A DNA stretch of 56,350 nucleotides from an uncultured Lactobacillus sp. (GTDB taxonomy: Bacteria > Bacillota > Bacilli > Lactobacillales > Lactobacillaceae), in the NCBI GenBank assembly GCA_937916845.1, contig CALFSK010000042.1:1-56350 (forward strand). Reading direction: 5' to 3'. The notes beneath the pieces were generated by a model. The model had not been told where the DNA came from and did not search any database. It saw nothing but the letters and a program-made list of their open reading frames with translations. Shown here piece by piece: positions 11,273 to 17,603 of the stretch. Positions within the stretch are counted from its first letter, which is position 1. Each line of letters begins with the position of its first letter. The translations under genes and the position numbers were made by a program.

Positions 11273-12649
11273 TTAGTTTGGCTGTTGTAATGCTAACTGT
11301 AGGGCTTCTTTCAAGGTTGAAACCCCAATGACATTAATCCCCTTTGGAATATCCCAGCCTTGCAGATTATTCTTCGGGATAAAGATTCGCTCAAAACCAA
11401 GTTTGGCCGCTTCACCGACCCGTTGTTCGATCCGGTTAACGCGCCGAATTTCACCAGTCAACCCAACTTCACCGACAAAACAATCGGTAGGACGGGTCTG
11501 CTGATCACGATAACTCGAGGCCACGCTGACAGCAATTGCCAAATCAATTGCGGGTTCATCAAGTTTGACCCCACCGGCCGCCTTCAAATAGGCATCCTGA
11601 TTTTGTAACATCAAGCTAGCCCGTTTTTCAAGCACGGCCATCAGTAACGACACCCGGTTATGGTCCAAGCCACTAGCGGTCCGTTTGGCATTACCAAAGA
11701 CCGTCGGCGTCACTAACGCCTGAACTTCGACCAAGATTGGGCGCGTCCCTTCCATCGAAACCACGATGGCTGAGCCGGTCGCATCTTTCAGCCGTTCTTC
11801 CAAGAAAATTTCCGACGGGTTAGCGACTTCGTATAAGCCACCCGTCCGCATTTCAAAGATACCAAGTTCATTAGTAGATCCAAACCGGTTTTTAACGGCC
11901 CGCAAGATCCGGTAAGTATGGTGCAAGTCACCTTCAAAGTAGAGCACGGTGTCCACCATGTGTTCCAAAATCTTGGGCCCAGCGATGGCGCCACCCTTAG
12001 TCACGTGTCCAACAATAAAGATCGTAATTCCGTTCGTTTTTGCGATTTGTAAAAGTTCCGCCGTAATTTCACGAATTTGTGACACTGAGCCAATTGCAGA
12101 ATCGACGTCCGGTTCCTGCATGGTTTGAACCGAATCAATAACCACAAACTCTGGCTTCATTGATTCAATCGTCGCCCGGATATTTGACATATCCGTTTCC
12201 GGATAGAGGTAGAAGTCTTCACTATCGACCGCCAACCGGTCGGCCCGCATTTTGACTTGGGACGCACTTTCTTCACCGGTCACGTACAGAACCGAGCCAC
12301 CCGTTTCAGCGAGTTGCCCTGAGACTTGTAACAGTAAGGTTGACTTCCCGATGCCGGGGTCCCCACCAATTAAAACTAGGGAACCTGGCACGACACCGCC
12401 ACCCAAGACCCGGTTAAACTCTTGAAGCTTCGTCTTGACGCGTGGCGTTTTCGTTAAAGAAACTTCCTTTAACCGTTGGGGCTTCGCCGACTTACCGGCA
12501 AAGCTGACCCGCGACTTGCGGTCCGGCTTTTTATCAAAGTGTTCTTCAACCAACGTGTTCCACTCGCCACAGTTGGGACAACGCCCAAGATAACGTGGGG
12601 TCGAATACCCACAATTAGAACAAACAAACTGGGTCTTCACTTTTGCCAC
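11273..12649 (-). CDS. radA: DNA repair protein RadA
   Basis: RadA/Sms is a RecA-like branch-migration helicase that processes recombination intermediates. The 458-residue protein starts with a four-Cys zinc finger ([21 protein letters not shown], key Cys at residues 10, 13, 27, 30). It continues with Walker [11 protein letters not shown], the RadA-specific KNRFG motif ([13 protein letters not shown]) and a C-terminal Lon-protease-like domain. The start is a GTG at 12649 behind GGGAGGCC. Confidence 0.96.
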
Positions 12650-12780
12650 TAAAATTGGCCTCCCATCCGTGCACCGTTTCGGCGCTTAATCGACATTCAA
12701 TGTACATGACTTTATTTTACCATTATTAACCATTAAAGCCGGTAAATCGCATCAGTTTAATGGATTTTTATCTATTACTA

Positions 12781-12815
12781 CCGTTCCACCAGCCAAACCT
12801 GGTGTGCTATGAGGA
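12781..12815 (-). repeat. Partial, diverged copy of the element B 3' arm
   Basis: The plus-strand stretch CCAGCCAAACCTGGTGTGCT followed by ATGAGG closely matches CCAGACAAAACTGGTGTGCT followed by TATGAGG at 12842-12867, which is the 3' arm of element B copy 1. Its own 5' partner arm is absent, so it looks like a truncated remnant of another B element. Confidence 0.6.
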
Positions 12816-12840
12816 CCAGCTGTGCCTGATTAACCGCTTC

Positions 12841-12995
12841 GCCAGACAAAACTGGTGTGCTTATGAGGGACGGTTCCAGCCAAAGTTCGGTCTGGAACCT
12901 CGCTTCAAAGCCGATACCCACATCTTTGAAGCGCCCCACAATATTGGCCAAGACCCCCGCCAATATTGTCGCCACAGCACACCAATTTTGTCTGA
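12841..12995 (-). ncRNA. Structured element B, copy 1
   Basis: On the minus strand this 155-nt unit folds into a closed multibranch structure. The outer helix is GTCAGACAAAATTGGTGTGCT (12995-12976) with AGCACACCAGTTTTGTCTGGC (12861-12841). Inner hairpins pair ACAATATTGGC with GCCAATATTGT, GCTTCAAAG with CTTTGAAGC, and GGTTCCAG with CTGGAACC. Copy 2 at 16694-16857 differs mainly by compensatory changes. G-U wobbles fit only the minus-strand RNA. Function unknown; it lies between radA and element A copy 1. Confidence 0.75.
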
Positions 12996-13063
12996 CTTCA
13001 CTATATACAGTTTCCCTATTATTTGAGGAGTTCCTTATGTGATGGCTTAACTTACTAAAATAT

Positions 13064-13241
13064 CGGAGGTTGTCACTGATAACATCGGTCGTGATGGTGA
13101 TATTTGGTCGGTGTTTTTCCGACCTTATATCACCGGACGGTCCAGAACAATTGCGCTTTTTGCAAGTGTTCTGGGCGAGGGTTAAGACCGCTTCTCAGGC
13201 TTAACCCGGTCCCACGACCGCATGCTATCAGTGACAACCGG
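13064..13241 (+). ncRNA. Structured element A, copy 1
   Basis: On the plus strand this 178-nt unit is closed by GGTTGTCACTGAT (13068-13080) with ATCAGTGACAACC (13227-13239). Inside are CGGTCGTG (13086-13093) with CACGACCG (13213-13220), a two-part hairpin (13096-13102 with 13128-13134; GGTCGG at 13106-13111 with CCGACC at 13119-13124), a hairpin 13142-13149 with 13167-13174, and a hairpin 13179-13186 with 13200-13207. Copy 2 (16476-16653, inverted) keeps the helices with many compensatory changes. It ends 10 nt beyond the dut stop. No known RNA family was recognised. Confidence 0.75.
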
Positions 13242-13251
13242 ATTAGGTCGG

Positions 13252-13788
13252 CTATCGATTCGTTGACCCAAAACCACCGGAACGGGTGGTTGTGACGTCG
13301 GCTTCGTTATCGGCTGTCAGATAGTGGGTAAAGATGCCTTGCGCAATCCGTTCACCCTTTTTGATGTGGACGTCGCGAATGCCCATGTTGATCAATTGGG
13401 CGTAGATGGCCCCTTCATTTTTAGCGTTGTTGTAGTAGTCCGCATCGATTACACCAATCCCGTTCGGTAAAATCAGGTTGCGCTTCAACGGGTTGCTGGA
13501 GCGGTTCGCCATCAACAAATATTCGCCGTCATTCATGTAGGCCTTAATCCCCGTTGGAACTAAAAACGGTTTTAACGTCTTTGCGGCGGCGTCTAAGTCC
13601 GCTTCGGAACTTTTTTCGCCGTGGTGTAACTGCCACAAGATCTTAATGAAGTTCAGTTTCCAAATCGATGGTAACGTAAAATCTTCCGCCGCTTCAAAGT
13701 CGTATCCAGCCGCTTGCTTCGTTGTCCGATAAGGGACGTGTAATCCTTGGTCAGTGTATGCGCTCACAATCTCAAATCCTCGGGCCAT
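13252..13788 (-). CDS. dut: dUTP diphosphatase
   Basis: dUTPase hydrolyses dUTP to dUMP, keeping uracil out of DNA. The five trimeric-dUTPase motifs are present in order: AGYDFEAAED, NRSSNPLKRNL, NGIGVIDADYYN, GERIAQGIF and the C-terminal RSGGFGSTNR. At 178 residues it is longer than the roughly 145-residue standard form, with an insertion between motifs 1 and 2 (about residues 38-75), as in enzymes from lactobacilli and their phages. The ATG at 13788 follows TAGGAATTAAA. No phage genes lie nearby. Confidence 0.92.
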   Translation of the reverse strand: MARGFEIVSAYTDQGLHVPYRTTKQAAGYDFEAAEDFTLPSIWKLNFIKILWQLHHGEKSSEADLDAAAKTLKPFLVPTGIKAYMNDGEYLLMANRSSNPLKRNLILPNGIGVIDADYYNNAKNEGAIYAQLINMGIRDVHIKKGERIAQGIFTHYLTADNEADVTTTRSGGFGSTNR

Positions 13789-13852
13789 TTTAATTCCTAC
13801 TTTCAAGTTTAATATGTGACCACATTTTACCACACTTCTACCAGTGGATTCG

Positions 13853-13881
13853 TTGACAAAATAGGCATTTACCGGTTTAAT
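13853..13881 (+). promoter_or_regulatory. Promoter of the acetyltransferase-rpiA unit
   Basis: A perfect TTGACA (13853-13858) and TTTAAT (13876-13881) are separated by 17 bp. The first ribosome binding site (AAGGTGG) lies about 27 nt downstream. Confidence 0.75.
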
Positions 13882-13921
13882 TAGCTTTAGTTATAAAACC
13901 CTTTACAAGGTGGTGACAGCA

Positions 13922-14206
13922 ATGGAATTCACGCGTGAACCGCACCGATTTTTCTTCAACGACGACCAGGGAAAATTAGCTGGTGAAATTACTTTTCCAG
14001 CCATCAATGATGATCAGACTTGGGTCATTGAACACACCTTTGTACGCGACGACTTTGGTCATCAAGGTCTCGCCGCTCAACTGACCGAAGCCGTCATTGA
14101 CGCTGCACGGGCTGAACACAAACAAATTCAGCCCCTCTGTACCTATGCCAAGGCTTACTTTGATCGTCACCCCGAAGCACAGGATATCTTAGTCACTAAG
14201 TCTTAA
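13922..14206 (+). CDS. Small GNAT-like N-acetyltransferase (YidJ/YjdJ type)
   Basis: A 94-residue protein of the small GCN5-related acetyltransferase family (PF14542-like). It has the acetyl-CoA-binding core [20 protein letters not shown] (GHQGLA resembles the R/QxxGxG/A loop) and a conserved C-terminal Tyr/Cys region [14 protein letters not shown]. Substrate unknown. The ATG at 13922 is chosen because AAGGTGG stands 8 nt upstream; two GTG codons just before it are possible. It is 20 nt upstream of rpiA and likely co-transcribed. Confidence 0.85.
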
Positions 14207-14226
14207 ATAAAGGAGCACGTCTACTA

Positions 14227-14913
14227 ATGAATCAGCAGGATCAATTAAAACAGCTCGTTGGCCAAAAAGCTGTTGAATATATTAAAGATGGTATGCAAGT
14301 TGGACTCGGTACCGGTTCAACCGTTAAATTTATGGTCGACGCCCTCGGTGAACGTGTTAAAAACGAACACCTTAACATTGTCGGCGTCTCAACTTCCGAA
14401 CGGACCGAAGCCCAAGCTAAAAGTTTGGGGATTCCAATGAAGTCCGTTGATGAAGTCGACCACCTCGATTTAACCATTGACGGCGCCGACGAAATCTCCG
14501 CCGACTATCAAGGGGTCAAGGGTGGCGGGGCCGCCCTTCTCTTTGAAAAGATCGTTGCCATTAATTCCGATAAAGTTATGTGGATCGTGGACGAAAGTAA
14601 AATGGTCAAACAACTTGGGGCATTTGGTTTACCCGTAGAAGTCATTCCTTATGGGAGCCAACACGTCTTTGAAAAGATGGCTGCCCGCGGTTATAACCCG
14701 GTCTTCCGTAAAGTTGACGGCGAATTTGTCCGGACCGACTCCAACAACATCATCATTGATTTGCATATCGATCCCATCACTGATCCACAGGCACTAGCCG
14801 AAGACCTGATTCACATGGTCGGCGTTGTTGAACACGGGCTATTCCTTGATATGGTCAACACAGTAATCGTCGGTCATGCTGATGGTCCCGAAGTACTTGA
14901 AGCCCGTCCATAA
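14227..14913 (+). CDS. rpiA: Ribose-5-phosphate isomerase A
   Basis: Interconverts ribose 5-phosphate and ribulose 5-phosphate in the pentose phosphate pathway. The 228-residue protein has [15 protein letters not shown] near residues 25-39 (phosphate loop), the catalytic [11 protein letters not shown] near 80-90, and [13 protein letters not shown] with the catalytic Glu and the following Lys. The ATG at 14227 follows AAAGGAGCACG. Confidence 0.96.
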
Positions 14914-14933
14914 ACTTTCCTTTCACGGATTGC

Positions 14934-14962
14934 TTGTCGACACCTTCAGAAACCGATACAAT
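14934..14962 (+). promoter_or_regulatory. pepC promoter
   Basis: TTGTCG (14934-14939) and TACAAT (14957-14962) are 17 bp apart, immediately after rpiA. They would give pepC its own transcript with a leader of about 20 nt. Confidence 0.65.
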
Positions 14963-14990
14963 GAGAATAAGATTAAAGGAGCGTGATTTT

Positions 14991-16322
14991 TTGAGTAAAG
15001 AAATTAGTATGAACCAGATTGCCAATTTTCAAGCCGATTTAGATCAACACGCCGATGCAAAAGTCATCGAACGTAGCGTGACCAAGAACGGTATCTTAGC
15101 AAGCAGTCAAGATATTCAAGCAATGAGCCAAACCACCCCGGTATTTTCAATTGATTTGGACACCGGTGACGTGGCTAACCAAAAGCAAAGTGGCCGTTGC
15201 TGGATGTTCGCCGCATTGAACACGATGCGTCACGACTTAGCTGAAAAGTTCAACTTAAAGCATTTTGAATTATCTCAGAACTACACTTTCTTCTGGGACA
15301 AGTTTGAAAAGGCCAACTATTTCTACGAAAACGTCTTAGCAACTGCTGACCAACCAACTAGCAGCCGGAAAGTCGCTTGGTTAATGACCACCCCACAACA
15401 AGACGGTGGCCAATGGGACATGCTCGTTGCGATCATCCAGAAATATGGGATCGTTCCTAAGAGCGTGATGCCTGAAACCTACAACAGTTCGAAGTCCGCT
15501 GAAATCAACGCAACGTTGAACTTAAAGTTACGTAAAGACGCCGTTGAACTCCGTGAATTAGTCGCAGCTGGCACTAGTGCTGACGCCATTCAAGACCGCA
15601 AGGAAAAGATGTTGAATGAAGTTTACCGGATGTTATCTTACGCATTTGGCGAACCCGTTACCGAATTCGACTGGGAATACCGCGATGACAACAAACAATA
15701 TCACATCGACCAAGGTTTGACGCCACAAAGCTTCTTCAAGAAGTACATTGGCTGGAACTTGGACGACTACGTTTCAATCATCAACGCCCCAACCGATGAC
15801 AAACCATACAACCACACCTACACGATTGAAATGTTAGGTAACGTTTTAGGCGGTCGTGAAGTTAAACATTTGAACGTCTCAATGGCAGACTTCAAGCAAC
15901 TCGCCATCAACCAACTTAAAGCCGGCCAAAGTGTTTGGTTCGGTTGTGACGTTGGTAAGTCTTCTGACCGTCAAAAGGGTGTTATGGCCATGGACGTCTA
16001 CAACCAAGATGAATTATTCGACGTTGACTTGTCCATGTCTAAAGCAGAACGTTTGGACTACGGTCAAAGTTTGATGACCCACGCGATGGTTATCACCGGT
16101 GTCGACCTAGTTAACGGCCAACCAACTAAATGGAAGGTCGAAAACAGCTGGGGTGACAAAGTCGGAACGAAGGGCTTCTTCGTGATGAGTGACGCTTGGA
16201 TGGACGAATACTGCTACCAAGTCGTTGTTAACAAACAATTCTTACCTGATGAATTGAAAAAGGCACAAGCAGAAGAACCAACGATCTTAGCACCTTGGGA
16301 TCCAATGGGCGCTTTAGCTTAA
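14991..16322 (+). CDS. pepC: Aminopeptidase C (bleomycin hydrolase family)
   Basis: A cytoplasmic cysteine aminopeptidase of family C1B that lactobacilli use for peptide nutrition. The 443-residue length matches the family. The catalytic Cys lies in NQKQSGRCWMFAALN (about residue 70), the His in MTHAMVITGVD and the Asn in KVENSWGD near the C-terminus. The start is the TTG at 14991 behind AAAGGAGCG, 13 nt from the ribosome binding site core; a longer frame from 14934 overlaps the promoter. Confidence 0.95.
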   Translation: MSKEISMNQIANFQADLDQHADAKVIERSVTKNGILASSQDIQAMSQTTPVFSIDLDTGDVANQKQSGRCWMFAALNTMRHDLAEKFNLKHFELSQNYTFFWDKFEKANYFYENVLATADQPTSSRKVAWLMTTPQQDGGQWDMLVAIIQKYGIVPKSVMPETYNSSKSAEINATLNLKLRKDAVELRELVAAGTSADAIQDRKEKMLNEVYRMLSYAFGEPVTEFDWEYRDDNKQYHIDQGLTPQSFFKKYIGWNLDDYVSIINAPTDDKPYNHTYTIEMLGNVLGGREVKHLNVSMADFKQLAINQLKAGQSVWFGCDVGKSSDRQKGVMAMDVYNQDELFDVDLSMSKAERLDYGQSLMTHAMVITGVDLVNGQPTKWKVENSWGDKVGTKGFFVMSDAWMDEYCYQVVVNKQFLPDELKKAQAEEPTILAPWDPMGALA

Positions 16323-16344
16323 TCACATTTGCACCATGATAAAA

Positions 16345-16399
16345 ACACACGGGACACTCACGGCAATCATTGCCAGTGAGTGTCCCGTGTGTTTTTTTT
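16345..16399 (+). terminator. Strong terminator after pepC
   Basis: A near-perfect stem of more than 20 bp (ACACACGGGACACTCAC with GTGAGTGTCCCGTGTGT, plus an inner GGCAAT/ATTGCC) is followed by eight T. Five A on the other side would let it act weakly in reverse. Confidence 0.93.
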
Positions 16400-16475
16400 A
16401 ATCCTAAAAGTTGCAAGTTAATTTCAAGAATTAATTACAGCTGTATCAATATCTAGGCCAATGAGAATAGCGATT

Positions 16476-16653
16476 CCGGTCGCCACTGATGACATGCGGT
16501 CGTGGGACCGGGCCTAGCCTAAGGGACGGTCTAGCCCCTCGCCCGGAACACTTGCAAAATACGCAATTGTACCGGACCGTCCGTGGCCTAAGACCGGAAA
16601 AATCACCGGTCAAAAGCCACCTTCACGACCGATATCATCAGTGACAACCTCCG
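16476..16653 (-). ncRNA. Structured element A, copy 2
   Basis: An inverted homologue of 13064-13241. The closing helix is GGTTGTCACTGATG (16649-16636) with CATCAGTGGCGACC (16491-16478); relative to copy 1 two base pairs became U-G, which is tolerated only if the minus strand is the RNA. The inner helix GACCGG/CCGGTC replaces GGTCGG/CCGACC, and GTGGC/GCCAC-type pairs replace GTGAT/ATCAC. Loop and junction motifs such as GGACGGTCC and GGTCCCACGACCGCATG are conserved. Function unknown. Confidence 0.75.
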
Positions 16654-16693
16654 ATTACCTGATATTAACAACAGTAAGGTTATCCTGAGCGCA

Positions 16694-16857
16694 GTCGGCC
16701 AGGGTTGGTGTGCTGTGTCGGCAAAATTGGCAGGTGTTTTATATCTGCCAATTTTGCGGGACGATTCAAAGACGCGGGTTACCGGCTTTGAATCGAGGTT
16801 CCAGACCGTCCTATGGCTGGGACCGTCCCCCACAGCATACCAGCCCTGGCCGACGGA
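16694..16857 (+). ncRNA. Structured element B, copy 2
   Basis: An inverted homologue of 12841-12995. The outer helix GTCGGCCAGGGTTGGTGTGC (16694 on) pairs with GCATACCAGCCCTGGCCGAC (to 16854): 22 consecutive pairs including two G-U wobbles. Several positions that are A-U in copy 1 are G-C here. Inner hairpins pair GCAAAATTGGCAG with CTGCCAATTTTGC, GATTCAAAG with CTTTGAATC, and GGTTCCAG with CTGGGACC. Its 5' end faces element A copy 2 across about 40 bp. Confidence 0.75.
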
Positions 16858-16925
16858 GCGGACAATTTAGGCATAACTACTGTTATGGAACTGATAGCAG
16901 TTTTGGACTTTTTAACCTTTAAGCC

Positions 16926-17603
16926 CTAAAATTCTTCTTTACCCGTAATGTTCAACTGGTCATCCAGGTGGTAACAGATTGGGACCCCGTTGGCCACTTC
17001 GACCCCATCAATCCCGGTATCACTAATCTGTTCGAGATACTTGATCATCGCACGTAACGTACTGCCGTGTGCCACAACCAACTGATTTTGTCCGTCTAAC
17101 AACCGTGGAGCAATCATATCGATCCAGTACGGCATGATGCGGTCGTACGCCATCTTCAGGCTTTCACCGCGGGGTTCAATGTTTGGCCCGTACTTCATGT
17201 AGCGCCGGTCATGATCCAGTTCAGCCGCCGTCAATAATGGGGGTACCGTATAAAAACTTCGCCGCCATTTTTGAACTTGTGCCTTACCGTATTCTTGGCG
17301 GGTAGCGTCCTTATTTTGTCCGCGTAACGCGCCGTAGTGTCGTTCATTCAGGCGCCACGTTTTATACTCCGGCAACCATGCTTGATTGATCTCATCCAAC
17401 ATAATGTTGGCCGTGACGATCGCACGTTTTAAAACCGACGTGTGGACCGCACCAAACTGAATGCCGGTTTCTCGTAGCCGTTTGCCTGCATGGTGAGCCT
17501 GCATAATCCCAACGTCCGTCAGCGGTACGTCACTCCAGCCCGTATACGTATTATCGCGATTCGCCGTACTCTCACCGTGTCGTACCAATACCAGTTCTGT
17601 CAT
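16926..17603 (-). CDS. gpmA: 2,3-bisphosphoglycerate-dependent phosphoglycerate mutase
   Basis: A histidine phosphatase-fold enzyme of 225 residues that interconverts 3- and 2-phosphoglycerate. The phosphohistidine is in [20 protein letters not shown], the second core region is [16 protein letters not shown], the cofactor loop [12 protein letters not shown] follows, and the second His is in [15 protein letters not shown]. Lactobacilli often carry several paralogues, so it may not be the main glycolytic enzyme. The ATG at 17603 has AGGTG upstream. Confidence 0.88.

Follow-up and report, generated by a model that had tools for sequence, protein, structure and literature searches.

Two copies of a structured element in the window

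We analyzed a stretch of 56,350 nucleotides (contig CALFSK010000042.1 of an uncultured Lactobacillus sp., positions 1 to 56,350; hereafter the window), in which an original prediction, made from the letters alone, had singled out two diverged copies of a 178-nt multibranched structure, here called module A. The source genome is a Lactiplantibacillus near L. xiangfangensis; the protein encoded at 14227-14913, which we take to be RpiA-like, is 100% identical to its L. xiangfangensis counterpart, and long DNA blocks around the gene align at 94.8-96.1%. Both A copies are present, share the six predicted helices, fold and covary (Table 1). Their alignment, flanks included, has a mean column identity of 83%, and the double changes named in the prediction are visible in it, but the GGGTTAAG stem of copy 2 also contains a mismatch. 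Minimum fold energies are -104.4 kcal/mol for copy 1 and -107.2 kcal/mol for copy 2, and none of 200 dinucleotide shuffles was as low for either (z of -11.7 and -9.8, respectively). The antisense strand of A copy 2 also folds well (z -6.8), because the module is a near-palindrome.

The predicted limits of 178 nt span about half of each element. The prediction had missed that at least 67 copies exist in the genome, that each window copy has a partner module beside it, and that the elements have ends with target duplications. The partner was seen when flanks were aligned, as a second conserved block (module B) upstream of A in many genome copies. B is recognized on the opposite strand, in the window and at many further loci, by R1, a covariance model with 62 consensus pairs built from 31 aligned A copies of the source genome. 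A and B are two related modules of about 180 nt each, with their 5' ends facing. In each, P1/P2 form the stem that closes the fold; P3 is a hairpin interrupted by a TTA/TTA internal loop, and P4, a short stem, bears two hairpins (P5 and P6). The loci retrieved from the source genome contain 85 clusters of modules: 56 simple B/A pairs, 2 pairs with an extra A, 23 single A modules, 2 B-B, 1 A-A and 1 lone B. In all 58 clusters that contain both modules, B and A are divergent with facing 5' ends.

The outer ends of the element match CTAAAGRTTGAAA in inverted orientation. In the source genome, TAAAGRTTGAAAR had 139 matches, compared with 39 for a reversed control. Candidates of 90-700 bp bounded on both sides by CTAAAGRTTGAAAR with at most one mismatch, as terminal inverted repeats, numbered 25; a recognizable end is missing from many copies. 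The ends of copy 2 in the window were set by resemblance to the CTAAAG repeat and are uncertain by several bases; its flanks, TTTAATCC and TTTAAGCC, form an imperfect duplication, judged by eye, that overlaps the assigned ends.

Table 1. Coordinates of the two element copies and their parts in the window
Feature	Position	Strand	Evidence or remark
Mobile element copy 1 (B module, spacer, A module), 476 bp	12777-13252	+ (strand of its A module)	Interval absent in relatives
Left target duplication of copy 1, TATCTATT	12769-12776		7 of 8 positions equal to the right one
Right target duplication of copy 1, TATCGATT	13253-13260		
B module of copy 1, related to A, opposite strand	12835-13002	-	R1 59.3 bits at 12838-12999; nhmmer profile B 134.6 bits
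A module of copy 1	13062-13243	+	Copy alignment, fold, R1
Mobile element copy 2, about 520 bp	16404-16923	-	Absent in L. xiangfangensis
A module of copy 2	about 16473-16655	-	Copy alignment, fold, R1, nhmmer
B module of copy 2	16688-16860	+	R1 80.6 bits, E 8.6e-20; nhmmer 161.5 bits

The element is present in many copies, with matches in ten genera

The original prediction had looked to further homologues with covariation, and a covariance-model search produced them. In the source genome (3.0 Mb), at least 67 full A copies scored 166 bits or more with R1; this is a lower bound, with 150 of 1393 candidates scored, and the 129 matches include antisense, partner-module and partial ones (a first search had scored 40 of 107 first-look candidates). 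Within the genus, 15 of 21 genomes had R1 matches at E 0.001, with just one weak match in three of the 15. Scans of the family and the order used strict filters, with at most 13 and 9 candidates scored per genome, respectively; they gave matches in 28 of 201 family genomes at E 1e-5, in 10 of the 40 genera sampled, and, across the order, in 5 of 295 genomes, each of them a member of that family. A distant blastn search of plasmid and phage collections with A copy 2 yielded no match, and an exact 18-base pattern match in IMG/VR was taken as chance, R1 finding nothing there at E 0.01. The source genome also contains a diverged subfamily of A type (C1:28286, C25:3520, C33:30272, C49:8491, C15:107980 and others), whose R1 scores are about 87-101 bits and which is paired with B in several cases.

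Target duplications and empty sites point to mobility

With each end free to shift by one base, perfect duplications of 7-9 bp flank 15 of the 25 repeat-bounded candidates, the remaining 10 not being perfect. When flanks were re-paired at random in 500 trials, the mean was 0.86 duplications and the maximum 5. About 13 of the 15 are independent, since two sites occur in both genomes, that of the window and that of a relative (G020). Nine repeat-bounded candidates with a duplication were classed by module content: five carry A and B (486-601 bp), two carry two B modules, one carries A alone and one, of 136 bp, carries neither. One insertion is apparently common to C69:59514-59649 of the source genome and C100:182370-182981 of G020, with the same duplication, CTCAGAC. 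At this site G020 has 612 bp with B modules and the source genome a 136-bp remnant without modules, which indicates that modules can be lost while the ends persist.

L. garii, L. plajomi and L. modestisalitolerans lack copy 1 at the corresponding site and have one copy of the target each. Copy 2 is absent at its site in L. xiangfangensis; at the site of copy 1, this species retains B and the right arm of A, most of A being gone. We could map 38 of the 85 clusters onto available stretches of G020, where some sites are shared and some lack modules; one of six gaps inspected there (opposite C22:23723 of the source genome) is a clean empty site. At six sites where the two genomes carry modules in opposite orientation, in-place inversion was considered and rejected, as independent insertions fit better: the inner sequences are 75.7-84.1% alike in three and unalignable in three. 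Because of its inverted-repeat ends, target duplications, empty sites and copy number, mobility of the element family is well supported.

The fold is maintained by covariation

Among the 31 source-genome copies, 25 of 62 consensus pairs have two-sided changes, a number that none of 500 shuffles reached (mean 11.1). A second alignment, of 52 matches drawn from several genera and from Lactiplantibacillus species, was made with R1; being fitted to that model, it leans towards it. In this cross-genus set, 91.6% of cells pair, compared with 67.4% after shuffling, and two-sided changes occur in 60 of 62 pairs, compared with 45.3; neither value was reached in 500 shuffles. Sliding the partners by 1-3 columns lowered pairing to 35.4-40.8%. 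The unpaired blocks GTGAA, CGAGG, AGACC and GGCT (the latter two as AGACC..GGCT) are nearly constant across genera, and the sense fold is lower than the antisense fold in 48 of the 52 copies.

At seven orthologous A sites (two pairs of 85% and 82% identity and two absent from the alignment were excluded), we counted nine double Watson-Crick changes, where the pooled divergence predicts 2.2 doubles, whatever their kind. Three orthologous B sites had 12 wobble changes, 3 A-C changes and no double Watson-Crick change; four of seven B pairs (63-84% identity) were judged not orthologous and left out. Between disjoint closest copies at an identity of at least 0.88, with the poorly aligning helix P3 of A excluded, double Watson-Crick changes numbered 27 in A and 13 in B, compared with 7.9 and 5.1 doubles by chance.

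Insertions are biased in position and orientation relative to genes

Gene context was established with a simple open reading frame caller (100 amino acids). The cluster sites of the source genome lie between convergent genes in 33 cases, tandem genes in 41 and divergent genes in 5, with 5 of 84 unclassified. At tandem sites, A opposes the genes' direction in 33 of the 38 modules counted (p 4e-6) and, for G020, in 10 of 13 (p 0.09), the latter partly the same insertions. Gaps in G020, counted after exclusion of the 22 of 78 modules outside clean gaps, were convergent in 21 of 43 with elements and 112 of 621 without (p 1e-5), and divergent in 2 of 43 and 135 of 621 (p 0.005). Two explanations are suggested by the orientation bias: harm done by a sense A to the gene that follows, or oriented insertion. 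Terminator-like hairpins were found near 17 of 75 elements, compared with 9 of 400 random windows at 220 bp and 13 of 400 at 260 bp; for these 75 elements, there was no clear difference between the A and B sides.

Some further features were noted in the window. The stop codon of the minus-strand reading frame 13252-13833, presumably a dUTPase-like gene, lies at the junction of element and target (13250-13260), so the insertion may set the end of this frame. A perfect 21-bp inverted repeat with a T tract (16341-16396), a likely terminator, adjoins element copy 2. A ribosomal protein L10 leader (Rfam RF00557, 66.7 bits) lies at 819-931.

A probable MITE-like element with a proposed selection on its fold

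Our preferred reading is that the A feature of the window is, very probably, half of a non-autonomous DNA transposon resembling a miniature inverted-repeat transposable element (MITE). The element is short (476 and about 520 bp in the window), present in many copies and without a transposase gene; since it has the defining features tested other than an autonomous partner, its membership of a MITE-like family is likewise highly likely. A transposase acting in trans would cut at the terminal repeats. In lineages still multiplying, selection would act on the fold, for each module on its own strand, either as RNA or as single-stranded DNA that becomes exposed; many resident copies would meanwhile decay. 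Insertions would survive chiefly downstream of genes. Between tandem genes, an A running in their direction would be avoided because its transcript terminates, is cleaved or interferes with the following gene; alternatively, insertion itself may be oriented.

Several observations weigh against this reading. No autonomous partner was recognized: among the loci retrieved, only three repeat pairs were spaced at 700-3500 bp (879, 968 and 3499 bp; longer ones were not sought), and the starts of their reading frames contain no transposase recognizable by inspection, no family search having been made. The other five of the six gaps inspected in G020 are deletions or unclear, not clean empty sites. 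Furthermore, when all cells of 107 A copies were counted at pairs whose commonest state is Watson-Crick, wobble (202) was nearly matched by A-C (179), with singletons at 15 and 16; among the closest A copies, at an identity of at least 0.92, the count was 22:18. A near-equality of wobble and A-C in A is expected of inert copies.

The modules may prefer their own strand

The original prediction had reasoned that U-G wobbles, which exist in the RNA of one strand, fix the sense strand. At pairs common to the folds of both strands, wobble:A-C was 195:92 in B and 22:12 in one other genus. We then turned to changes between closest copies, a count less open to subfamily and alignment effects than the all-cell count. 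At an identity of at least 0.88, wobble:A-C was 94:54 in A and 74:27 in B; at 0.90 it was 54:27 and 54:22, and in B at 0.92 it was 37:9. On this basis, the absence of a strand preference, which the all-cell count had suggested, was replaced by a weak preference. The same closest-copy count gave 16:4 (genus) and 109:16 (family, identity of at least 0.70) for RNase P and 17:3 for 6S RNA, or, at pairs shared by both strands, 12:1 and 85:12 for RNase P and 5:2 for 6S, the last from few changes. The predicted strand signal stands in its direction and is weak, much below that of RNase P and below that of 6S. RNase P class B was not found in one genome of the genus (G003, 93% complete), perhaps owing to an assembly gap.

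Wobble is the commonest state at four pairs and A-C at none. In the cross-genus set of 52 copies, wobbles account for 4.1% of the standard pairs, compared with 13.6-15.7% in the RNA controls on all sense pairs and 3.6, 7.7 and 4.7% on pairs common to both strands. Because nearly all A pairs (63 of 67) are shared in this way and the controls are low there, wobble content does not separate RNA from DNA, and an argument against RNA from low wobble content was dropped, the DNA reading being rated slightly lower for that. These comparisons suggest that the modules weakly prefer their own strand, which does not by itself prove a sense RNA. The bias would fit selection, weak or in the past, on RNA or on single-stranded DNA, many copies being inert.

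The prediction had left two options, a conserved RNA and a structurally selected mobile palindrome. Mobility and a maintained fold were borne out; action as RNA, and on the predicted strand, is no more than possible, given the absence of an accepted Rfam match and the weak wobble preference. The prediction's statement that no known family was recognizable still holds: in Rfam, neither module had a match at the gathering score anywhere in the window, and for copy 1 a relaxed search of 12650-13300 (E up to 5) gave only five matches (13.7-16.7 bits), far below cut-offs and chance-like.

It is quite possible that the modules are a functional RNA cargo of the element, transcribed outward or by read-through, as the near-constant unpaired blocks, the own-strand wobble preference, the orientation bias between tandem genes and the lower sense fold would lead one to expect. 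Such a cargo sits less well with a strand preference below that of the RNA controls, with the lack of an accepted Rfam match and with promoter-like sites in 12600-17000 that do not exceed the level of shuffles (4 compared with 5.9). More tentatively, the selected fold could be one of DNA, single-stranded or cruciform, seen by the mobilizing enzyme or the replication fork. The all-cell ratios of 202:179 in the 107 A copies and 118:76 in the cross-genus set are small beside those of the controls at shared pairs (RNase P, 37:1 in the genus and 186:25 in the family; 6S, 22:7), the antisense strand also folds well, and modules are lost by internal deletion (L. xiangfangensis at copy 1; the 136-bp remnant at C69:59514), all of which would suit a DNA fold. 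The excess of wobble over A-C on each module's own strand among closest copies, the four pairs with wobble as commonest state and the biased orientation to genes argue against it. An unselected fold, with arms kept complementary by hairpin-templated correction or gene conversion between copies, could account for the near-equal all-cell counts and the nine double changes at orthologous sites, but is improbable, as these processes alone would neither keep commonest-state wobbles or loop sequences over genera nor explain the closest-copy wobble bias.

Relation to known repeats and significance

Full-text literature searches found no description of this element family; subscription literature was outside the search, and absence from print is not claimed. 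From description alone, the element can be likened to bcr1 of the Bacillus cereus group, a mobile repeat with a conserved fold. ERIC, which consists of one module, is a second point of comparison. As described in PMC10969869 and PMC3049150, ERIC resembles our element as an intergenic MITE, with a reported orientation-specific effect on transcripts, and differs in being from other taxa, the enterobacteria. QMITE2, a prokaryotic MITE, is similar in its inverted-repeat ends, direct repeats of 7-9 bp, predicted stable transcript fold and location mostly 3' of reading frames (review, PMC10969869). Its core is 113-145 bp, whereas our element combines two divergent modules, related to each other, with a fold retained across several genera; the two are set apart by description, their repeat sequences being uncompared. 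BOX, RUP and SPRITE of Streptococcus pneumoniae are likewise small interspersed repeats with extensive secondary structure that are over-represented between convergent genes (PMC3049150). They are reported mainly in S. pneumoniae, less in S. mitis and rarely in other streptococci, and the likeness is again one of description, not of sequence. A passage of PMC2267715 mentions lactobacilli once, as L. johnsonii.

We also considered a broader and rather unlikely idea, that the paired modules represent a new class of structured nucleic acid that the element would need in order to move. A mobilizing enzyme would read the two inverted folds, each about 180 nt long and made of RNA or single-stranded DNA, by their shape, and shape, not sequence, would have been inherited over ten genera. 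Folded MITEs are often known from one or a few species, which has left selection on their folds open. For the present family, the high copy number per genome and the matches in ten genera provide enough covariation to ask about such selection directly, and the near-constant loops of the divergent module pair point to a specific partner. Since several of the bacteria concerned can be cultured and engineered, whether a MITE needs its fold to move, and whether as RNA or as DNA, becomes testable.

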